Of a stretch of 64,000 nt of DNA, positions 5,191 to 63,523 are shown in pieces. Source of the DNA: Tausonia pullulans (lineage: Eukaryota > Basidiomycota > Tremellomycetes > Cystofilobasidiales > Mrakiaceae); the NCBI GenBank assembly GCA_951802195.1, contig OX637636.1:384501-448500 (forward strand), given 5' to 3'. How positions within the stretch are numbered: position 1 is the first letter of the stretch; every line of letters starts with the position of its first letter. Under the pieces are notes generated by a model, which was not told where the DNA came from, made no database searches, and was given only the letters and a program-made list of their open reading frames with translations. The position numbers and the translations under genes were made by a program.

Positions 5191-8100
5191 TCAGAGAGAC
5201 AAGCGCTTTCCACTCACAAAGGTTCGTGCGCTTTCAAGAATCTCACGGAAGACGATTCCCTTGCGCTGGAATTGGTCAACGCCGCGCTGGAAGACCGGAG
5301 GAGACTGGCCCGCAGTGGCGGCGGCCTGGAATGACTCGGCGTCGGTCATAAGGAGATTGAGGAGGATCTTGGCGAACCACCAATACGGTAGCTGCAGAAC
5401 AAGGTCAGCCGAGTAATTGGTTGAAGCGCCATGAGCCCGCGGTCGAAGGTCAAAAGGAACGCACAGCCTCGCGACAGAAGATGGTGTCCGCGTACGGAAG
5501 CCGCTTCCCCCCGTCGCCCTTTGGCAAGCCATTGAGACCCGGAGAGGACTCAGACCTGCTCGGTGTTGATGGCGTATTGACCGAGGCGATGAGAGGCGTG
5601 ATGCAGGCGCAGTCGTCCAGATCAGGCTCGTCCGGGCCCACCGAATCGACGCGACGGCACAAAGTGTCAAAGTCCCATCCCCGGCGCCACTGATGAAGAA
5701 TAAGAATTGGGTTTAGTCTCTTCACTCTGAAAAAGTGTGGGGGGAGCAGCAATGATGTTGCACTGACCCGCTCAAGCCCCGCCTGAACCCTGGTAGGCAT
5801 CTCCTCGTCCGTGTATGTTGTGCACCATGGTGCAGCCTCCTCCTTCCGTTTGCCCTCGCCAAGATCTAATACCTGTCGGACGAGCACGAGACCACATACG
5901 AGCCATGCAAAGGGCCCAACGCTCTTCCGGTGTCCGCTCGAGAGGCAGTCCGACTCCTTCTGATTTGCAGGCGTCTCAAGGATGTTCATCATTCGTTCGA
6001 GCGTGTAGCCGCGGGATGTTGAGAGGATCGTCTGCCACTCCTCGGCGTCTCGAGCCTCCCACAGCGGGTCCGACGCCGGGAGAGGAAAGGCAGCGAGCTC
6101 GGCGGGAGCGATCTGCCGAGGCGTGCCCGTCTCGAGAAAGGCGACGGTGTCGAGGACGAAGAGAAGGAATGCGGTTCTGCCAAGAGTGATAAGCATGCGA
6201 ACAGAGCATGAAGGAAATCAGAGAGCTCAGTTGAGACACACCTGCGAATTCCCTCCCACCGTATCCACTTGTGCCAGGAGTGTTCGAGCGACTGCTCCTG
6301 GAGCGTATAGGCCTGGCCGCGCTCTGGGGCGACGTGCCCATTGGTTTCATCAAACACCCCAATCTGGCGGGCGATCTGCAATAAGGCAGGCCGTGAGCGA
6401 AGAAGGTAGCGATAGTAACAACAAAAAAGGGTAACGCGCACGTTGATGATGGTGCCGAGCTGCATGTGGGCGCTCCAGCGCTGCTCATGGGAATCGCTCA
6501 GGAAGGCGGGTGCATTGTAAAGGATGAGCGCCTGGAGCAGGCCGACGTTATATTCCTGCGGTAGAGGGATGTGATCAGCTCGAAGTGTCTGAAGCAGAAC
6601 AAGGGTCGGGTGTTCTCACAGTGAACAGGACGCCTTGGGAGCGAGTGAATGACTGAATAAGAGCGGCCAGGTCAGGTTCATAAGCCAGCGGATTATTGAA
6701 CAACGAGACTGCAGGAACGCACCTTGATGAGCATGTCGGTCTTCTCCCGCTTGACAACGCTTTTCAGTCCGTCCCAACTGTCGGCACTGGCACTCTCCTG
6801 ATCCCACTGCTGCCTGGCAGAGACAGTGGAGTACTTCCTCTCCGAGTTGCCATCAGGATACTTGGGCCCGTGCCCGCGACGGCGCGGGCCGCCGACGGTG
6901 CAGATGGAGAAGGCGAGGCAACCAGGGACGACGGAGAGGTTGAATGTCGCTGGGTGAACCATGGGGATGTGCGGGACCAGCTGGGTAATCGTCCGCCGAG
7001 CAATTTTGGAGAGGGTGCCGATCGAAGGGATTCGCCAGTGATCAACTGAAGGTAGCCAAATGTCAGCCGAACAAACATAGCGAGAGATCAAGCCCGCTCA
7101 CATCCACTTACCCGCATAACATCCTCGGAACCGGTCGATTGAGATAAAGAACTTGTCACTCGAATCCAGATCGTAAGACGCGAGATCGATGCGGTCAAGC
7201 CGATCGTTGCCCTCCTGGAGAAGCATCTTCCTCTCCGGCTCGAGCTTGTCCCTATGCGGATCGCCGCCGTCCTGCGCCTGCTCCGCCGCATTCGCCCGGT
7301 CGCGCTCGGCCTCCATCGACTCAATGTACGCCTGCGTCTGCTGAAGCTGGTGACGCGCCGTGTTCGGTGATAGAGGGGCCGGAGGCGACGCGGCAGAGGG
7401 AGGGAAGAGCCCCATGCCGTCGAAGAGGAATTCGGCCTCTGGGTGAGGCGAGAGACCATCCAACATGCCTCCAGGGCCTGGGGACCAGAATTTGGGGAAA
7501 GGAAACCCACCAGGCCCGCCGTTGGCTGAAGTCGAAGCGGCGACGCCTCGGAGGGCATCGTTGGACGAGGCACCGCCGCCGCCAGGGCCGCATGACGTCA
7601 CAATGGGTGGCGAGAAGAAGTTCCAGTCGTTGCCGCCGAGGAAGGCAGAGGTCGTACGAGGCGAGGGGACAAGAGAAGGCTGCACTGGGGCGGGCTGGGG
7701 CTGAGCGCCGTCATTCACAGGCGCGTTGAAGGCCTAATGTAACCACAATGGTTGAATAGAGCGAGATCAGGTCAGGAGGTCATGGGTGGTCTGAGACAGC
7801 TTACAAATGCTAGTGACTGACATTTGGCTGCTGAGAGTGAGACACCCCTTGCTGGTGATGCTGCTGCTGCTGCTGGGCGACAAAGTTCGGATAGGCGAGA
7901 GCGAGTAGGGCCAGGGGATCCGCCGCATTGAGGTGGGGTGGCAACGGCACAGACCCGTCAGACGGGATCGTTGGAAGAGGGTAGTAGCCATCGTCCACGG
8001 GAGGGATGGCGATGCCGGACGACCGCGAGGAGGTCGTATCCGCCGTGTATAATGATCCCGCATTAGAGCTCGGCGTCGAGGCGGAGCCGGACGGGGTCTG

Positions 8101-9204: not shown

Positions 9205-9796
9205 GGTTCGTGGCTCGGAAAGAATGTGGGGGGGGGGAGGAGGACGGCCGGGGTTAAGCGGAAGGTTGGGAGAAGCAGAAGGAGCGGATGGGCGGTGAAG
9301 GTGGAGGTGTGGGCGAGCCAGGGCGCCATCCTCGCGGGTGGAGCGAGGGCCGGTGGAAGGGGGCGCGACGCTGGGGAGCCGACGACGAGGCTGAGGTTGG
9401 TGCGCCCCGAGTTCATGGCAGGAGCTATTGAATGCCACCTTTTGAAAATGGATGTTGCTTCGGGGAACAGACATACTGTATATTTTTTGTATTCAAGTCA
9501 TGAGTTATCCGTATATGACGATGTAACCCTATGAGAGATGGTGAGTCGTAGCCAGATAGAGGGAGGGCGAAGATGAAAGAAGAGGTGGAAGGAAAGTAAA
9601 AGATGGGTCATGGACATAGGCCCATTAGATAAACGAGAAATATCCATGGGAAAGAGCGTTGATTGGAGATGACAGATGTAGGCGGTAAGAGGGGGAAGGG
9701 TAAGGTAGATCTTAAATTACATATTAAGATGGCCAGCTATGTCGAGCGGTGGCTATTGTCTATGGTCTACATACTTCCCCGCCCTTGGCCTGCTTT

Positions 9797-12700
9797 TCAC
9801 CCAGGACCGATGGCGACGCCGGCAGCAGTATCAGCCATCTGGCCACTGCGAGCCATCCACCTCGTGGTCGACCGCCGGTGTGTCTGCCGGATCGTAGACG
9901 CGATCTTGCGGATCTCATCGTCCGTGACAGGGTCAAGGGCTGTGTTCTTGCTGTACCTCCGCCTTCGGACGAGTCGCCATATCCGGGCTACAAAGATGCA
10001 GTGGAAGAGGAAGGCCGCCCTCGGCGGCGACGGTGTCGGGCAGACAAGCGTCTGGAGGGAGGGAGGATGGGAGGAGGGTGAAGGAGAGGCACGCGCTACC
10101 GCAGCCGACCAGATAGCGCGCACGACGGGACACGGCTCGTCGAAGAGGTGGAAGAAGGACTCGACGGGGGCCGTCAGGCACAGCGCACATCGCTTGGACC
10201 TGTTGTGCGGCGTAGCGGTTCCGTCGGCGAGGAATGCCGCAGCAGTATGCTTTCCTGGGTGGAGGCTGTACAGCGAGAATCGGTGGGCCAAGTCGACGTC
10301 TTCGGGCGACGCTCGGGACACGGCCTTGAGCAAGCACCACTGACGCTTCCAATCGATCTTGGTAAGCACCGGAAAGTGGTCCTGCCAGCCCTTTGGGATG
10401 ATGAGGCCGCGGTTGGCTAGAGTACGACTGTGTGCGCCGTGGGGCTCACGAGGAACGTTCAGCCGGCCAAGGTTTGTGTGGATAGGGTGGAGACCCAGCC
10501 GCAACTGGCTATCTGTACCGAACGTAGACATCCAGTGGACAGCGTTCCTCCAGCGGTTTTGATTCCAGTAGCTCGTGTCAAAGCTGATTTCTTCGAACCA
10601 TGCCCGGAGGTAAGCCTGCCATCGTGCAGGGAGAGCTCCTTGGAGCGTTGTGATGGCATTCCACCAGACGGCTGGGAAGAACCATTGACCTTCCACTGGG
10701 GAAAGGAATACGCCTAGCCAGCTGAAATTGGCGGGCCGAGGTCCTCTGATGAACTCTCCATCCCGGAAGATGGTGCGAGTCAGCATTCTATAAGCCCCTG
10801 GGTCGAGGCTCATGGTATGGATGATCCGCTTGCGAATACGGATCGATGCGGGAAGCTCCGGTTGGAAGAGCACATCGCCAGCCCACTGAGCTCGCGCTTT
10901 GATGAGCCGGAATCGGAGTGGCGTGAAGCCGAAGCCGCCGAGGTCTCGAGGGGTTTCAAGACGCTCCCTGCTGACGTCATGGTGTTTCGATCGGTAGAGG
11001 GACTTGTAGGCCGTTGCCTCGAGTTCTTCCAGGATATCGTCTGGGCACGGCAGGAAGCGGTCCAGGTAGATGATCTTCGAGTAGATGTACTGGTTGATGA
11101 CGTTGCACCGCGCAAGGAGAGGGAGGTCGTGCAGCGGGATGCGCGCAAGTCGAGCCTTCAGTTTGCCGATGACATCTCGCCAGCAAGCAAGCACGTTGAT
11201 CGTGCGACCGCAGGGGACACCGAGGAACTCGAACGGCAGCGTCCTGACACGCCATTCGTGGTGCCACGCAGGTGCCTCTGTCCTTCATGTACCTAAAGGA
11301 TAGAGGAAGGATTTTTGGTAGTTTAGCTTGCTTGCTGCGGCTTTCTCGTACTCTCGGAGGCAGACCGTCGCCTCGTCGACCTCCGACCAGGTCCGACACC
11401 GGATACTTAGATCGTCTGCAAAGAGGAGGACCTTCCGCTCGTGTAGAGGGGGCGGATTGGCTGGTGGGAGGCGATGGCGGAGCATACATGCCAGCGGCTC
11501 CAGGAGGAGGGCGAAGATCGTCGGTGCCGCGGGATCGCCCTGTCGGACACCAGACCGGATGTCGATGGCTTGACCCATCCATCCGTTGATCATGAGCCGA
11601 GCTGTCTGAGAGGTCATCGTTGAGGTGATCCACGCGGCGGCGCGCGGACCGAACCCCATGTGGCTGAGGCAGGGGCCAACGAAGTCGTGCGATACTCTGT
11701 CGTATGCCTTCTCAAAGTCGACCTGGGCGAGGACGCCAGGCAAAAGGTCTTCGTCGTCAATGGCGAGCTGGAGAGAGGAGATGTTGCGACCCGAGTCGCG
11801 GCCAGGGAGGAAGCCTGTCTGGTCCCCGTCGATGAGGGTGTCCACGACGGTGAGCAGGCGGCTGTTGATGGCAAGGGAGAAGATACGAGCGTCAACATTG
11901 ATGAGCGAGATCGGACGATAGTTGGCAATCTGGTCGCGATCTCCCTTCTTCTTGAAGATGAGATGGATATGGGCCTCGCGCTGTGAGGCGGATCGGAGGC
12001 CTGTCCCCGGAACGAGGTTCAGTAGGCTGAGGAGGATCGGGCCGACGACAGCCCATGTGGCCTGGTAGAACTCGACGGGGATCCCGTCACTTCCTGGTGT
12101 CTTGTTACGGTTCGATCTGAACGTGGCTCGCCTGAGCTCGTCCAGTTCGAAAGGAGACTCGAGGGTCCGACTCTGGGAGTCGTCGAGTGTGTTGGTGACA
12201 TATCGGAGGGCGTTGGCGTGCTCGGCAGCTGGCGTCGGCTTGGGCTCATAGAGAGTCGTGTAGAAGGCATGTGCTGTAGTAAAAATGCTCTCGTTGTGTG
12301 TGGCGGCTGCGGCTGCTGGGTTGTCGAGTGGCCGCAGGGCTGCGATGGTGTCGGCCTGGCGGACGATCTTGAGTCGCTGCTTGACGGCGTACTCGCTTGT
12401 GTTGGCTGGTTCGAGGTGGGCTCGAAGAGCGTGGCCTTGGAGGATCGACCTAGGTGGGTCCCCGCCTGTCACTCTGCTCATTCGGGCGAGGTGTCTTGAG
12501 ATGCAAGACGCCTCCTGCGCTATCTGAAGCTTGGTCCGATCCCAAGCCTCGAAGGGGTTCTTGCCCTCGGTGAGCGCAACTTGGTACCACTTGGGGATAT
12601 GGTAGAGGAAAAACTCAACGAAGCCTGTGATCTTCAGCAGGTGTGTGCCAATCTTGTACGATCCAGGACCGTGCTCCATTGCACCTGGGAAGGTGAGGCT

Positions 12701-13475
12701 GATTTCGATCGGCTTGTGGGTAGAGTAAAGATGGCCGGTCGGTCGTGGCAGGAAGCGCTGTCTTACGGCTCGGCTAGCGAGTAGAGAGAGGAGACAGGTA
12801 GAAGCGATCAATGCGGCGATCTGCTCGCGTGATGCCAGTATAGTTAGTGTATTGACGCTGGAGCGGGTATAGGGATCGGTATGGGTCGGAGAGGGCAAAG
12901 TCCCGGGCCAGCCGGCACATTTCCTCCTTTCCCACGTTCTGGGTAAATTGGCTCATCCCGTCGAGGTAGATGTCCTCCACACAGTTCCAGTCCCCACCCA
13001 GCAGGAGAGGAATGTCAGAGTGGGCAGGGATCTTGCGAGAAAGAGTAGAAATGAACTCCTTTGTTGAACGGCCATTCGTCTGGCCGTCTCGGCAAGGGAC
13101 ATAGACTGCAGCCACCCTGACGGCTTCGCCGGCTATGGTGAAGACAGCATCCGTCAGGTTGGTTCGTAAGATGGGGGAGGAGCGGGAGATGGATCTGATC
13201 CTAGTTGGAGGGGTATCAGGAGGAAGGAATCGAGAGGCATGCCGCCAGAGGATGGCAGTCTGGCAGCCGACCGTAAAGATCGAGCCGAAGCCCATATCTT
13301 CACACTCGGCTGTCCAGGTAGCTACCTGTTCTAGTGATGTGCATGCTACTTCTGAGAGAAGGTATATGTCAGCCTTGGATCGTGAATAGAGGGAGAGGAG
13401 GAGACTGCGGGCGCGATCTCGCGTGAACACCCTCTGGATGTTCGCCGCGACGATCTGTACATCGTTGTACATCAT
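9797..13475 (-). pseudogene. LINE ORF2: APE endonuclease, reverse transcriptase, C-terminal Cys/His motif (interrupted)
   Basis: The first part (13475-12774) shows the APE endonuclease motifs: ANIQ, SEVA, VYVPC, GGDWNC and RIDRFYLSP. The frame then changes near 12775, and the adjoining frame supplies the remaining endonuclease histidine motif (STHKPIEI) and the RT. RT landmarks are NKTPGSDGIPVEFYQ, PISLINVDARIF, QTGFLPGRDSGRN, VDFEKAYDRVS, GVRQGDPAAP and the catalytic FADD. A TGA at 11287-11285 interrupts the thumb region. The same frame continues to LPFEFLGVPCGR and to a CX2C...H...C motif (CALC...HLFDEPC). The stop is at 9797. With one frame change and one stop, this copy is probably inactive but not old. 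Confidence 0.85.
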
Positions 13476-14749
13476 TATTCTTCCATGTCCTCGGCTTCAG
13501 CCAAGGTCACGAGGGTGTGCTCGATGGATGCCTGGGAGGACGGCGTGGAGGGGATGAGAGAAGGAGTGGAGGGTGGGTTCAGGAGGAGCGAAGATGGCGG
13601 GGATGGCGATGGGGGTGGGGGAGACGATGGTGACAGGGGGGGTGGAGTGGGAGGTGGATGCTCGTCTTCGACCTGCATCCCGTCTTCTGTCCTCGCCATA
13701 CCCCCCTCGTTGTCATCCTCTAGGGCGCTCAGGGTGAGAACGGGTTGCGAGCCCGCATTGCGCGGTGCTTGCTCTGAGTGGGAGTGGGAGGAGTCGGCGT
13801 GGGCAGGAGGTGTGGTCACCTCCGTCGCGGCTCCAGTCGGTCTGTTCAGTGACCTCCTTTTGGATCTTTGTACGAGCTGGTATCCATCCAGGTCTGGTCC
13901 CGGTTCGACAGGCCGTTGGGGGGGTCCTTCGGTTGGTGCTCGCGCACTCGCTGGAAGGTTTGCCTTCGGACGACCTGGGCATCGGGTCGATGGGTGGGCG
14001 CGCGATCCGCATCCGCCACACTCTGGAGCGGTGGGACACTTGGCACGAGCGTGCTCAAATGAGTGGCAGTAGTAGCAGTATGACGAGGCTTGACGGGATG
14101 GAGAGTTTGTCGCAGAGCTAGTCTGGACGGGTTTGAAAATGACATCGCAGTTGACCCAGCCGGGGAACTGCTGGGTGAAGGCATTTGCCCTCGGCATCGT
14201 CTTGGAGCCAGAGAGGTCGAGCAGGACTCTAACCCGGCCAGTTGGGGAGGTAGGTGCGCTGGGGTGGAATTGACGCTGGAAGAAGATGACTCTGTCTCCG
14301 GAGGCCTCTACCTGCTTGCGAAACTCATCCTCCGATCCTTTGATGTTTTCGAAGTTCTTCAGCAGGCCTTCCTGCAGGAGCTTGTTTTGGGTATTGTAGC
14401 ACGCGTGAATCTGAGGTTTCACCCCTCTCACGTTCAGCGGGAGGGACTGTAGTTGGGTCAGGATGTCTTGAGTGTTTTCTTCAGGGTCGACTTGGAGGAG
14501 CATTCTGTCTTTGGGGTCCTTGAAAAGACGGATCAGGGTGGTCAGCCGTTCATCGCACTTGCCAATTGCGATAGAGATCTCAAGGGGGGTGGTATCTCGA
14601 GGGACGGAGATGGCTAGACAGTTCCCGCGATTGGTAGCCAAGGCTGGGGCGATTGGGGTAGTATCCTGCGGAGGTTGCTGAGCGGCTCCGAAGACGAAGG
14701 AGAATTGGGGCTGGGTGCCAGACGAGTCACGTTGCCTCGCAGTAGCCAT
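13475..14749 (-). CDS. LINE ORF1 protein with two CCHC zinc knuckles
   Basis: An uninterrupted 424-residue frame. The central part contains two CX2CX4HX4C knuckles (CYYCHSFEHARAKC and CGGCGSRAHPSTRC), typical of RNA-binding ORF1 proteins of non-LTR elements. An upstream region around residues 60-210 may be an RRM-like fold, but I cannot confirm this. The C-terminal third is acidic and Ser/Pro-rich. Its stop codon TAA overlaps the ORF2 ATG by one base (TAATG). The protein presumably packages the element RNA. Confidence 0.85.
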   Translation of the reverse strand: MATARQRDSSGTQPQFSFVFGAAQQPPQDTTPIAPALATNRGNCLAISVPRDTTPLEISIAIGKCDERLTTLIRLFKDPKDRMLLQVDPEENTQDILTQLQSLPLNVRGVKPQIHACYNTQNKLLQEGLLKNFENIKGSEDEFRKQVEASGDRVIFFQRQFHPSAPTSPTGRVRVLLDLSGSKTMPRANAFTQQFPGWVNCDVIFKPVQTSSATNSPSRQASSYCYYCHSFEHARAKCPTAPECGGCGSRAHPSTRCPGRPKANLPASARAPTEGPPQRPVEPGPDLDGYQLVQRSKRRSLNRPTGAATEVTTPPAHADSSHSHSEQAPRNAGSQPVLTLSALEDDNEGGMARTEDGMQVEDEHPPPTPPPLSPSSPPPPSPSPPSSLLLNPPSTPSLIPSTPSSQASIEHTLVTLAEAEDMEE

Positions 14750-14755
14750 TTTTAT

Positions 14756-15050
14756 TTTTTTTTGTATTTAAGTCATGAGTTATACGTAGAGAACGAGGTA
14801 ACCCTATGAGAGATATCGAGTAGTAGCCAGATAGAGGGAGAGCGAAAGTAAATAACAGGTAGAAGGAAAGCAATATATGGGTGTGGACATAGGCCCATTA
14901 AAGAGGTAAGATATTAAGATGACCAGCTACATCAAGCAGTGGCTATGGACCAGCCATACTTCCCCACCCCAGACCTGCTTGTCACCCAGGATCGATGTCG
15001 GCGCCGACCGCAGTTCCATCCATCTGGTCCTTGCGAGCCAAGGTGGGGCG
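14756..15050 (-). mobile_element. 5'-truncated LINE copy (last about 290 bp)
   Basis: In minus orientation it begins near 15048 inside the end of ORF2. The last codons encode LARKDQMDGTAVGADIDPG and a stop, aligning residue for residue with the end of the full LINE (MARSGQMADTAAGVAIGPG). A recognisable 3' UTR and an A-tail (about 14755-14763) follow. The 5' end abuts the A-tail of the next element (15051-15061). Differences from the full LINE in both protein and 3' UTR show it comes from a separate subfamily. Confidence 0.85.
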
Positions 15051-15433
15051 TTTTTTTTTTTGTATTTAAGTCATGAGTTATACGTAGAGAACGAGGTAAC
15101 CCTATGAGAGATAGCGAGTTGTAGCTAGATAGAGGGAGAGCAGACATGACCGAGCGCGAGAACGTCGGGCGAGGCGCCGTGGGAAGAGGGTTGGCCGAAC
15201 CACTGGGGATGGTTGGCCGGACGGCGTGATGGGCGCCGTGGGAGGGGGGTTGGTCGAACCACTGGGGATGGTTGGCCGGACGGCGTGATGGGCGCCGTGA
15301 GAGGGGGGTTGGTCGAACCACCGGGGATGGTGGTTGGCCGGAAGGGGGTTGGTCGAACCACTGGGGATGGTTGGCCGGACGGCGTGATGGGCGCCGTGAG
15401 AGGGGGGTTGGTCGAACCACCGGGGATGGTGGT
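15051..15433 (-). mobile_element. SINE-like composite element: tandem-repeat head plus LINE 3' tail
   Basis: The last about 85 bp (15062-15145, read on minus) nearly match the 3' end of the truncated LINE copy, including the terminal CTTAAATACA before the A-run at 15061-15051. Upstream of that the sequence is unrelated to the LINE: about 45 bp of unique sequence, then a GC-rich array of 59-bp units. A second copy with the same unique segment and the start of the array lies at 63294-63515, flanked by a target-site duplication, so this is a mobile unit. No coding frame is supported. A GGTTCGA core in each repeat resembles part of a tRNA B box, but a full Pol III promoter is not evident. Confidence 0.75.
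15189..15432. repeat. GC-rich minisatellite, about 59-bp unit, 4-5 copies
   Basis: Units start at about 15189, 15247, 15306 (shortened to about 40 bp), 15346 and 15405 (partial). Each carries GGTTGGTCGAACCACTGGGG followed by a segment with CGGCGTGATGGGCGCCGTG. Units differ by few substitutions (CTGGGG/CCGGGG, GTGGGA/GTGAGA). The array forms the 5' (head) part of the SINE-like element. Confidence 0.9.
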
Positions 15434-15503
15434 TAGGCGCTTCGACAAGAAAGAGAATTGAATATATGGAGGATCTCAACCACTTAGTTGATGACCAAAC
15501 ATC

Positions 15504-15583
15504 AATGGTGTGGTGAAGTGGCTATCATTGGTGCTTGCCACTGCAGCATGCACTAGGCCCGGGTTCAATTCCCGGCACCATTA
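15504..15583 (+). tRNA. tRNA-Gly (anticodon GCC) with an 8-nt intron
   Basis: The cloverleaf folds by eye. The acceptor stem AATGGTG pairs with CACCATT (discriminator A), the D-stem is GTGA/TCAT, the anticodon stem is GGTGC/GCACT, and the T arm is CCGGG-TTCAATT-CCCGG. The anticodon loop reads TTGCCA with GCC as anticodon; eight extra bases (CTGCAGCA) after position 37 form a canonical intron, leaving a 72-nt tRNA. The internal promoters are a near-consensus A box (15511-15521) and the B box GGTTCAATTCC (15562-15572). A T-run at 15587-15590 is a Pol III terminator. Confidence 0.88.
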
Positions 15584-50800: not shown

Positions 50801-53800
50801 GTTTGTAGCCGGCTGATGGCGGAGGAGCTGAAATTGGAGATGCGCGAGGCGAGGTACTGCAGAGACAGTGGTCAGCGCAGCAAGAAGAGGTCCAAAGGAA
50901 GTCATTATACATGCCTCAAAAATCTTCCGTGCAGACTCCTGATCCTTGGGCGGCTTGGCAACGAGCGTCTCAGCGAGTAGCGCAGCCGGCGGATCCGACA
51001 GGATCTTGAGCTTCTGGATGGCCTCGACCCTTGCACTGCTCGCAACGACATTGAACCCGAGCACAGCGCACTCGCCGTTCGTAAACGTCTCGCTGGGCGT
51101 AGCGAGGAATGCGGTGGCGTCCGACCCTCGGATGCTTGGGACAAAGGCAACGGAGCGAGCAACGGAAGAGACGAGGTACATATCCTTGTAGACCTCGTAA
51201 AAGTGGGAGAAGAAGTACTCGAGCGACGAGGAACGGAGGGAGATGTCTGTCGGATGAGCAGCGAGTGGGAGGAGCGTCTCGAGCGAGGGGTGGCGTTGGA
51301 CACCGAGGGAGAAGAGGAGCTTGGCTGCAGAGGCCAAATGTCACCTCCTTGAAGGATGAGCGAAGGGAGAGGAAGAAGTGACGCACCTTCATCGGAATTC
51401 GAGCGCCATTTGACAGTTCCCCAGTCAAGAATCGGCAACTTGAGCTTGCGCAGCTCGTCCGTCGGCTCAAAGAGGCTCGCAGGCGTCTGCCTCGTCGATA
51501 ATCCCTCTACAGGAAAGGCCGGGGTGTTCCGTAGCTTGTCCATCTCGGTTGCAGAGAGCTCGTCCCGGACCGAGACAAGGTATTTGACCAGATCAAAGAC
51601 CGTCCAGCCCCCCGCATGGAGGAGACGGTTGAAGACGAGCTGAAGCTCGACGTGTCGACGGACACCGAGGGCAGTGAGGAGCTTCTCCATCGAGCCCTTG
51701 ATGGGTGTGCTCTTCGGGAAGGCGATGATTCTTGGTCACATAGCTGGTCAGTTGACAGGCCGATCAGTCGCTTAGTCCCAGCAAACACTCACGGGAGATC
51801 CGGGAAGAGAGAGACGTTGGGGAAGTAAGCCTCGCCGGGGGTGACCATGCCCGAGCGGGAGGGGATGATCTTCTGGTCCGAGAGGAGGGAGAAGATCCGC
51901 GCTTGACTAGAGGCTTTTTGCGCCTGGAACGCCTTGGCGATAACGCCAAGGACCCTCTCCGCAAAGACGGCTGAGACGGCGATATCCATCTCTGGTGAAG
52001 CCTCGGGCGAGCCTGTGAGCGCGGGTGAGACAATGTACGCGATCCAGTCGGCAAGAGAGAGCTCTCGGAAGCCTAGGGCGTGTGGAAGCCGTTCGGTTTG
52101 GAGCGCCTTTGAGACCGCGAATGGGAGAGACGTCAGGGGGAGGGGGACGTCGGCGGGGATTGTCGAACGGCGTGGATCGTAGTACGATTCTATCGAGGCG
52201 AGTGCGATGGGCGGGGAGGAGGAAGACATCTTCTCGTCGGTGCTGCTAGGGGTAAAGACGGCAACGTCGAGGAGCCTCGACTTAAGCTCAGTATCAAAGC
52301 CGGGAACTTCGGAAAGCGCAATCCACCACTGGAGGCAAGCGATCATCTCCTGCTCGTTCAGAACTCGACTCTTCAGCTCCCCGAGGACATCCTCGAGCAG
52401 GACGTCGCGAAGCAAGCCGCGCTCTCGGAGGCGGGCAACCATTGGCCCAGCCTCAGTGAGGACCTCCTGCGGGACGACGGGGACGCGAGTGACAAACTTG
52501 GCGAGTGCGTCGTGTGGCATGCGGACTTCACGGGCGGCATCGAAGATGCCGCGGGTGGAGATGATGCTGAGGTCCGTCTTGGAGCATACAAAGAAGGCGG
52601 CTTCGATCTTGGGGGAAGAGAGGGGATCCGTCTGTCAGTCAAGAGAGAACCTGGCAAGAAAGAATTACCTCGCACCTGGCGAGAGACCGTCGCAGATGGA
52701 GTACTCGTGTGAAACGTAAAAAACCGGAGGGCGTGGAGTGCCCGGCCGATGAGCCACTTGCGAACATCCTCAGCGGGCTGGGCGCCAGATGACGAGCCCT
52801 GCCAGAGCATGCGGACCTCGTAGCACTCGAGCTCGTAAATGGCGCGCGCGAGGAAGCCTGGTGTATAGCATCAGATCGCTCTCCCAGTGGTGGATCAAGA
52901 AAAATAATAGACGAACCTGCAATGTAGAGCAACTGGGAACAACAGATTCTTCGACTGTCAGCAATAGAAGCGCCTCAGTGTCTGTGGGCGCGCAATGACG
53001 CACCTCCTTGTTCCAGATGGCGACGTGCCGGTCCACGAGGTCGATAGACTCGCGCTCGACAGTTGGGATGAACCTCGCCGAAATGTGCCCGCCAATACCC
53101 GTCGTCTGACCTGTCGCGTGGCCCTGGCCGAGAACAGGGATATCAGTCTCGAGTCCTCCACACAGAAGAGGACAATAATGGCGCACGATGAAGACCTTCG
53201 CGAGTCCCCTTCCATCCAGGTCCGCCCTAAGCCCGCGCCAAATCGTCCCCACCCTCTCGTTCTCAGCCATGGCAGTCTCCCCCGCGTTGACCTCTGCCAC
53301 GGCCTCGGCCTCACCAGCCTCCCACTCTTCTCGCCCCGTAAAGACCATAGCAACCTGAGTCTTCGACGGGGGTGCCTTTTTGGTCGCTCGCTCGAGCTCG
53401 ACCGCGAACGCTCGCGAGATGGTGACGGAAACGTCAGCAGCCATGATCTTGAGATTGAGAGTTGTCGTTAGGGCTTCGAAGGGGTCCTTAGGTCGTGGTG
53501 GCGGAACTGGCGGCGCGAGAGGTGCTGGCGAAGGTGTGGAGCGGGAGAAGAAGGCCGAGCTGAGCATTGACGCAAAGGAAGTCGCAGGTAGGGGAGCTTT
53601 GATTGGCTGCTTAGGCGGTGGGGGAGGCGAAGAAGCGGCCTGATAGACCATCCGAAGGATCTTAGCGGACATGCGGACGCCTGTTGATTCAATACCCTCG
53701 ACGCGCATCATTCCGCCCTCACTTCGCCTCTCGAGTCCCTGAGGAACCTCGACGAGCTTGGCAGTTCCTGCCTCTTTTTCAACCAGCACGAGAGGAAGAT

Positions 53801-54939
53801 CGTCGAGGAAGAGCTCGGCCCGGATGATGCGCTGCATAAATGTCAGGCTCGTTGTGAGGAACCGAGCGAGGTCGAGCGGCGATGACGGCATGGGAGAGGG
53901 AGAGCGGAGGTCCATGGAGAAGGAGGTCCAGGGCTTGGAGAACGGGGAGAGCGGAGAAGGAGTGGTGGCGTCTGGGCTGAGAGCACCGGCTCGGGCGAAT
54001 AGCTAGAGCGATGCGGGGTGAGCATATCTGGCCGTGTCTCTTCCCATGACGAGTGTGACCGACCTGGTCTCCTCCTCCCTTCCAATGGAAGGCCATCCAT
54101 GTTCCATTCGATTCGACGTAGGGCTCCTCAGTGATAGAGAAGAGCGAGTAGAAGCCGACGCCGAACGCTCCAATCTGAGGATAGGGAGACGTATTAACAG
54201 CAAATCAGACGAAGCATTGGCGTGTAATGCCCACCTTGGACTCGTCCGGGTTACCCGAGGCAATGGATTTCAATCGGGCCCAGTCCTCGGGTCGGAAGGG
54301 TTGGCCGTCGTTGAGAAAAACATAGCGGTGGATCTTACGATCGACGCAGATGCGCTAGTCAGCCTTTCGCTGCATGTCGTGCGTCTTCGGCTCACTCCCT
54401 AACCTCGTCCGTCTTGAAGTCCGGTACCCTCTTCGACTTCACTGTTTCCTCGAGGGAAGAAGGACGAGCAACACCTTCTCCTCCTGTGGCATCCTTGGCC
54501 TCGGCGCCAGCCTTGGTATAGAAGCGGATCTGGACGGAAGTCGCTCCAGCGTCGTCTGCATTTTGGAGAAGCTCTCTGTGGGAAAGGAATGGAGAGAAGA
54601 GGAGATGAGCGATGTGTTTGAAGCACAACCATAACTCGAGAAAGGCCGTTGCATGGTTGTCACTGTCACCACACGACCTCCACCCCTTCTCCAGTGGGAC
54701 ACGCCCATGCCCTTGAACCGTCCTTCTCTCACGTGTCTGCCCGCCCACCCGCAACTCTCCGAGGTACTCCCAGTAGCAACCCTTATACACCCCAGGCCTT
54801 GCTAAACGCATCCGGCTATTCACCTAAAAATTGTGTTCTCGCCCGAGTAACGCGCAAGGACCTTGTCGATCAGCGCCCGCTGGTTGACTGAGACGGCCTC
54901 ATCCTCGCCCTCGTCCCAGAGTTTCGTGCGGTGGTTCAT
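47870..54939 (-). CDS. Giant sacsin-like protein, GHKL ATPase N-terminus and DUF3684 body
   Basis: The start is ATG 54939 (MNHRTKLWDEGEDEAVSVNQ) and the stop is TAG at 47872-47870; roughly 2000 residues in many exons. The N-terminal GHKL/HSP90-type nucleotide site is clear: RELLQNADDAGATSVQIRFY, DKIHRYVFLNDGQPF-like lid, and IGAFGVGFYSLFSI. The long middle follows the fungal DUF3684 pattern, with LYIAGFLARAIYELE, WWIALSEVPGFD and GVRRHVELQLVFNRLLHAGG. A linker with PPPPSSKPLLPQ precedes the last domain: FFVDKAVPNPQQVMTDL, RFVNLRYYMAWHD, WYFSLAHEIAHN (split by an intron) and FAYWSSSIAEQFL. Sacsin relatives are chaperone-like; this family's role is unknown. The HEIAHN...H motif is discussed as a finding. 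It converges with DCR2, 69 bp between stops. Confidence 0.85.
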
Positions 54940-63285: not shown

Positions 63286-63293
63286 GCTTCCTT
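63286..63293. repeat. Target-site duplication, left copy
   Basis: GCTTCCTT before the element; the same eight bases recur at 63516-63523, and the intact OPT gene has them once (in GTCGCTTCCTTCACCG). The last T residues merge with the T-run, so the true length could be six to eight. Confidence 0.8.
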
Positions 63294-63515
63294 TTTTTTT
63301 TTTGTATTTAAGTCATGAGTTATACGTGGAGAACGAGGTAACCCTATGAGAGATAGCGAGTTGTAGCTAGATAGAGGGAGAGCGGACATGACCGAGCGCG
63401 AGAACGTCGAGCGAGGCGCCGTGGGAAGAGGGTTGGCCGAACCACTGGGGATGGTTGGCCGGACGGCGTGATGGGCGCCGTGAGAGGGTGGGGGGGGGGG
63501 GGTCGAACCACCGGG
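63294..63515 (-). mobile_element. Second copy of the SINE-like element, inserted in the OPT relic
   Basis: In minus orientation it starts within a repeat unit (CCCGGTGGTTCGA), has an expanded C-run, runs through the unique segment, and ends with the same LINE-derived 85-bp tail and an A-run of about ten or more bases. It has only about one and a half 59-bp units, against four to five in the copy at 15051-15433, so it is 5'-truncated or carries fewer repeats. Its tail is nearly identical to that of the other copy. Confidence 0.85.
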
Positions 63516-63523
63516 GCTTCCTT
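63516..63523. repeat. Target-site duplication, right copy
   Basis: GCTTCCTT directly after the element, matching 63286-63293 and the uninterrupted site in the intact OPT gene. The OPT similarity resumes here without a gap. Confidence 0.8.

Follow-up and report, generated by a model that had tools for sequence, protein, structure and literature searches.

The window, meaning the whole stretch of 64,000 nucleotides that was analysed, carries on its minus strand a SINE-like element at 15051-15433 (15435 with a leading CA), with its 5' end at 15433 and its 3' end at 15051. The 5' part of the element is an array of 59-bp units and partial units of about 40 bp (15174-15433, minus strand), delimited by TRF, unit matches and the 5' boundary, and on the minus strand it begins ACCACCATCCCCGGTGGTTCGACC. 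TRF detects a 59-bp period at 15173-15331 (95% matches) and a 99-bp higher-order period at 15241-15434 (98% matches). Between the array and the tail lies a segment of 36 bp (15138-15173, minus strand). According to sequence comparison with a neighbouring LINE, this segment is mostly unique to the element, its final 12 bp or so aligning also with the LINE. The 3' tail of about 94 bp (15056-15149, minus strand), delimited by alignment with the LINE 3' end, is common to both elements, and the sequence terminates in an A-tail of 11 A (15051-15061, minus strand). The target-site duplication of this copy amounts to just 4 matching bp. A second copy was found by within-window BLAST at 63293-63516 on the minus strand (94%). 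Its array is shorter and its 5' end falls about 9 bp short; the motif GCTTCC flanks it on either side and was read by eye as a target-site duplication. The same search gave tail-only matches at 14755-14843 and 9483-9576. Sequence, TRF and BLAST thus agree with the coordinates and the anatomy of array, segment and LINE tail given in a preliminary description of this DNA, as well as with its two copies of different array length, one of them with a clear duplication. Its lengths needed revision: sharing with the LINE is confined to the 3' tail as proposed and extends over about 94 bp instead of about 85 bp, and the unique segment, put at 45 bp, exists and measures 36 bp, including the 12 bp or so that can be aligned with the LINE.

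The neighbours of the main copy belong to two kinds. Directly 3' of it and in the same orientation lies a 5'-truncated LINE copy (14756-15038, minus strand) corresponding to nt 5565-5853 of the LINE, and its tail is 96-97% identical to that of the element. Stacked behind it is a longer 5'-truncated LINE (about 9483-14742, minus strand), which starts from LINE nt 680, has one TGA in the ORF2 frame and carries a tail about 85% identical to the element's. On the other side, a tRNA-Gly(GCC) gene, interrupted by an 8-nt intron, is located on the plus strand at 15504-15583 (ARAGORN with introns; Rfam RF00005, 51 bits). Its 5' end faces the 5' end of the element at a distance of 71 bp. No tRNA gene was detected beside the second copy at 63293-63516. 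Elsewhere in the window, a gene with a DUF3684 domain (52770-53915, minus strand) has named relatives mostly in Agaricomycetes and one in Linderina. Together with the Microbotryum relatives of the LINE described below, this makes a fungal host likely, as the preliminary description assumed, and probably a basidiomycete.

The family was searched in the 23.9-Mb assembly of 21 contigs that contains the window. The element as query gave at least 125 genome matches (357 first-look candidates, 40 of them scored), and a 78-bp query made of the segment and the adjoining array gave at least 52, of which at least 41 were full length (179 candidates, 40 scored). Forty loci were analysed, comprising 20 clusters (L031-L050) and stretches of 1.2-1.3 kb at 20 further places matching the segment (L051-L070). 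These loci hold 56 SINE-like copies, in which the array ahead of the segment ranges from 0 to 1,002 bp. Of 55 copies compared over the 116-nt 3' part, 31 are identical and 47 differ by at most one mismatch, and this near-invariance suggests a recent spread of the family. A-runs of 5-22 were found in 50 of the 56 copies measured. Target-site duplications of at least 5 bp were recognised in 14 of 32 tRNA-side copies, SINE and LINE together, versus 1.6% of re-paired flanks (maximum 9.7%); the other 18 show none of that length. For this count the 5' flank was compared with the sequence after the A-run, and copies whose A-run could not be read or whose 5' start was unusual were excluded. The genome search by unique segment and array, which the preliminary description had recommended, therefore yields a dispersed, multi-copy family with A-tails, duplications and variable arrays, and the description's view of a dispersed non-coding element whose LINE sharing is restricted to the 3' tail is upheld. 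Across the analysed loci the element tail is 83-100% identical to LINE tails over about 94 bp, and 60 of the 75 tail cores found belong to two forms. The shared tail is predicted to fold into the same hairpin in both elements, with z values of -3.05 for the SINE tail and -1.72 for the LINE tail.

The partner LINE is represented by one whole copy of 5,853 bp, assembled across the adjoining loci L040 and L041. In this copy ORF1 starts at nt 37, after a 5' UTR of 36 nt that leaves hardly any space for a promoter, and comprises 636 codons. Two CX2CX4HX4C motifs can be recognised in it by eye; none is reported by Pfam. ORF2, with 1,224 codons, contains a clear reverse transcriptase (RT; Pfam, E 1e-25); an AP-type endonuclease is matched weakly (E 0.0074, below the Pfam cut-off), and no RNase H domain was detected in ORF2 by Pfam. 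An open frame of 1,231-1,233 residues surrounds the RT domain in about 50 LINE copies (53 by count). Among the best 120 of 161 relatives listed, the nearest named ones are from Microbotryum, with about 40% identity. The first nine bases, CAACCACCA, are common to SINE and LINE. On contig C2, six LINE RT domains follow each other on one strand at 365962-397562 with a spacing of 6.1-6.3 kb, forming a head-to-tail stack with a SINE and a tRNA-Ile gene at its end (L049). The members of a second RT family, which score about 129-137 bits, are frequently arranged in facing pairs or near contig ends, for example at C6:151453 and 162346, C12:84552 and 108014, C1:4415, C3:8624, C11:3022 and C9:1324806; they might mark centromeres or subtelomeres.

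The main finding concerns the position of the SINE-like copies relative to tRNA genes. Twenty-one of the 56 copies are stacked, with the tail of another SINE or LINE no more than 60 bp in front of them. The remaining 35 are exposed; in 31 of these the 5' end of an antiparallel tRNA gene lies at a distance of 47-119 bp (median 80 bp), and 13 tRNA isotypes are represented. For random positions in L031-L050, 1.4% of trials gave an antiparallel tRNA gene at 40-130 bp, and ARAGORN places a tRNA gene somewhere in 17 of these 20 loci. Within 200 bp, the nearest tRNA gene is never parallel to the SINE or LINE copy. The arrangement seen at the tRNA-Gly(GCC) gene is that of the family. The preliminary description was right about an element composed of a repeat and a LINE tail, and it overlooked both the neighbouring tRNA gene at 71 bp and the recurrence of this position throughout the family. 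ARAGORN found no tRNA gene beside four exposed copies, namely those of L042, L044 and L070 and an old, degraded copy in L047. A low-threshold Rfam search gave no tRNA match at the copies of L044, L070 and L047 or at the second copy of the window; near L042 it returned a sub-threshold tRNA half of 15.3 bits (gathering score 29). At L042:3642-3755 (minus strand) a weak match to YrlA, a Y RNA-like family (24.9 bits, gathering 69, E 0.0045), overlaps this tRNA-like half beside the SINE 5' end. In L044 a T-arm-like stretch can be seen by eye at a fitting distance and was left out of the tRNA-gene count. In the seven of 70 loci searched with Rfam at gathering thresholds, tRNA was the sole Pol III target, with no 5S or U6. 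No specific helical period was evident in the distances between element and tRNA gene; for periods of 10-13 bp the resultant length was 0.29-0.33. On contig C6 the tRNA genes predicted by ARAGORN are crowded, with 10 in the 9 kb of L038 (C6:1020000-1029000), eight in L037 and six in L039.

The LINE occupies the same position. After matches that are SINE tails were left out, the loci contain 51 LINE entries, and 15 of them have an antiparallel tRNA gene at 71-124 bp; they differ in truncation point and include 5'-truncated copies, and three of the 15 consist of the shared tail only and could be either element, a fourth (from LINE nt 5755) being borderline. Of the others, 28 are stacked and one lies 230 bp off, and six cut by the end of the locus and one internal fragment were set aside. 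Since 39 of the 40 loci (all but L031) were picked through SINE matches, these LINE entries are no independent sample. A SINE-independent test used 73 RT matches assigned by score band, with the LINE 5' end set 3,440 bp upstream. For three of the 73 predicted 5' ends, one of only 63 listed tRNA genes lies at 62-93 bp, in each case antiparallel. In 192 shifted controls the corresponding number averaged 0.07 and never exceeded one.

Stacked SINE and LINE copies share one orientation. In L032 a 24-bp target-site duplication contains the start of an older element, which indicates a second landing at the same place. The copies nearest to the tRNA genes are not significantly younger than the stacked ones (P 0.34), so the order of insertion is unproven.

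Several attributes of SINEs are present: the element is short, dispersed and multi-copy, it shares its 3' tail with a LINE, and it has an A-tail and target-site duplications. An internal type-2 Pol III promoter consisting of A and B boxes, likewise expected of a SINE, was not found with own-genome promoter profiles based on 36 A boxes and 51 B boxes. The best A-box score in the element is 1.2, compared with 8.9 for the lowest own-genome value. Each intact unit contains the B-box-like GGTTCGACCAA, which is borderline with a score of 8.1 versus 8.6 for the lowest own-genome B box, and among 2,000 shuffled units 100 scored as high. These profiles do not support a complete Pol III promoter. As no A box was found, the label SINE is based on size, a shared tail and target-site duplications. 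The element could still be a classical SINE whose array holds the type-2 promoter and which is transcribed by Pol III. The near-B box repeated in every unit and the absence of TTTT from the sense strand of the main window copy would fit such a SINE; given the missing A box and the frequency of B-like scores in shuffled units, we consider it unlikely.

Taken together, the SINE-like element is best described as a short, non-autonomous, retrotransposon-like element built of a variable tandem repeat and a LINE 3' tail, which in 31 of the 35 exposed copies faces a tRNA gene head-on from 47-119 bp upstream and which is likely copied and inserted by that LINE. The probability of this reading is put at roughly 80%. 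The shared tail and the shared target site point to probable mobilisation in trans by the LINE proteins.

Other origins have to be weighed against this reading. The element could be a truncated or rearranged LINE whose 5' region bears a tandem repeat, as the common tail of about 94 bp with its A-tail and the nine identical first bases might suggest. The preliminary description had named head and repeat inside full-length LINEs as the sign of such an origin. They were looked for in the one whole 5,853-bp copy, where the best match of the head reaches E 0.72, and in L031-L050, where all matches to unit and segment lie outside LINE bodies; SINE copies with different arrays, moreover, have one common 3' part. 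The element is not just a truncated LINE, in that its head is absent from the whole copy compared, and this explanation, highly improbable, was dropped. Comparably remote is the idea that tRNA loci were duplicated together with an adjoining element, so that the linkage would be inherited and would not reflect repeated targeting. It could draw on the clustering of tRNA genes on C6, where 10 lie within 9 kb, and on the very similar SINE arrays of L035 and L039, but L035 lies beside a tRNA-Glu gene and L039 beside a tRNA-Ala gene. Thirteen isotypes, differing flanks and LINE truncation points, private target-site duplications and one common distance are also hard to reconcile with duplicated loci.

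A further explanation concerns the way in which the site is chosen. Insertion into open, nucleosome-poor DNA upstream of tRNA genes, with no contact to Pol III factors, would agree with distances ranging over 47-124 bp and with the few copies away from tRNA genes. However, each of the 46 copies counted runs antiparallel to its tRNA gene, and open chromatin alone is disfavoured since it would not set an orientation; it is regarded as a rather improbable account. The combination of 13 isotypes with one distance and one orientation instead argues for targeting through Pol III factors and not through sequence, so that the target is likely read through TFIIIB or TFIIIC bound at the tRNA gene.

In the preferred reading, LINE and SINE likely form a pair aimed at Pol III genes, by analogy with TRE5 of Dictyostelium. 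The ORF2 protein of the LINE would recognise the shared tail hairpin and the A-run of the SINE RNA, and the LINE proteins with the bound RNA would reach a tRNA gene via its Pol III factors. ORF2 would then nick the DNA upstream of the tRNA gene and reverse-transcribe the RNA there. Later copies would land between the tRNA gene and older copies, and such re-landing would give rise to the stacked head-to-tail clusters, which can be seen as a natural record of repeated landing. Positions marked by Pol III would also be low-harm insertion places in a compact genome. The array may hold a promoter or TFIIIC-like sites. A more far-reaching and tentative model, held with considerable doubt, is that of a fungal LINE/SINE pair homing to Pol III genes: the non-coding SINE would inherit the exact landing site of the LINE, and the targeting would lie in the LINE proteins and the 3' tail. 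In this model the tRNA locus may supply the promoter, because the LINE ORF1 starts after only 36 nt and both elements share their first nine bases; the Pol III promoter region might drive elements that land at a fixed distance facing away from it, and the array would consist of TFIIIC-like sites in a row. Since the non-coding partner contributes only RNA and has the same landing place, the question of which part carries the address becomes approachable.

The layout of the element has parallels in several known systems. SVA elements of hominids are non-autonomous, depend on a LINE for mobilisation and possess a GC-rich tandem array of variable length, together with Alu-like and SINE-R parts. 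They are not known to target tRNA genes, and the analogy to SVA drawn in the preliminary description holds for the layout, with no kinship implied. AfuSINE2-1a from Aspergillus fumigatus is likewise a fungal SINE with a 3' end resembling a LINE 3' UTR; unlike the present element it has a tRNA-related 5' region, and a search of its description gave no mention of a tandem array or of proximity to tRNA genes (PMC5063351). Ty1-Ty4, the Tyl elements and others of yeasts are fungal retrotransposons inserted upstream of tRNA genes (PMC7175516, PMC5911963). They are LTR elements with an integrase, in contrast to the LINE/SINE pair with A-tails described here. Dewa, NeSL-1_TV and the planarian LIN families are non-LTR elements tied to tRNA genes (PMC3706591, PMC4640811), each described as specific for one type of tRNA gene or its spacer, whereas 13 isotypes are approached at a distance by the present pair. 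In the largely open-access literature searched, no fungal non-LTR element or SINE located upstream of tRNA genes was found (PMC5911963, PMC5006619, PMC5391098, PMC4640811, PMC3706591, PMC7175516, PMC5063351).

The closest counterparts are found in social amoebae, the only hosts named in a review table for non-LTR cases targeting tRNA genes, which lists TRE5, TRE3, NLTR-A and NLTR-B (PMC5911963). NLTR-A and NLTR-B insert 2-6 and 39-64 bp upstream of tRNA genes (PMC5911963); an RNase H domain replaces the zinc finger in them, unlike the LINE ORF2 described here, in which Pfam found no such domain. TRE5-A of Dictyostelium discoideum inserts in the opposite orientation within a narrow interval upstream of many tRNA genes, and its non-autonomous partner TRE5-A.2 shares this target (PMC5911963, PMC5391098). 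TFIIIB is contacted by the ORF1 protein of TRE5-A, and targeting is lost when the B box is mutated (PMC5911963). The present elements resemble TRE5-A in their upstream interval at many tRNA genes and their opposite orientation, seen in the 31 exposed SINE copies and the 15 LINE entries, and the SINE resembles TRE5-A.2 as a non-autonomous partner with the target of its LINE. They differ from TRE5-A in a median distance of 80 bp compared with about 47 bp. TRE5-A.2 lacks ORF2, and a test element like it keeps ORF1, whereas the present element, compared with the whole LINE copy, showed no LINE sequence outside its tail: no ORF1 remnant of the kind expected from a TRE5-A.2-like internal deletion was found, the head having no LINE match better than the E value given above. 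A further difference from TRE5-A is that the host here is likely a fungus. In the literature searched, only social amoebae are described as hosts of non-LTR elements that home to sites upstream of tRNA genes of many kinds, fungi being represented by LTR elements with an integrase; a fungal LINE with this habit would represent an independent origin in another kingdom.
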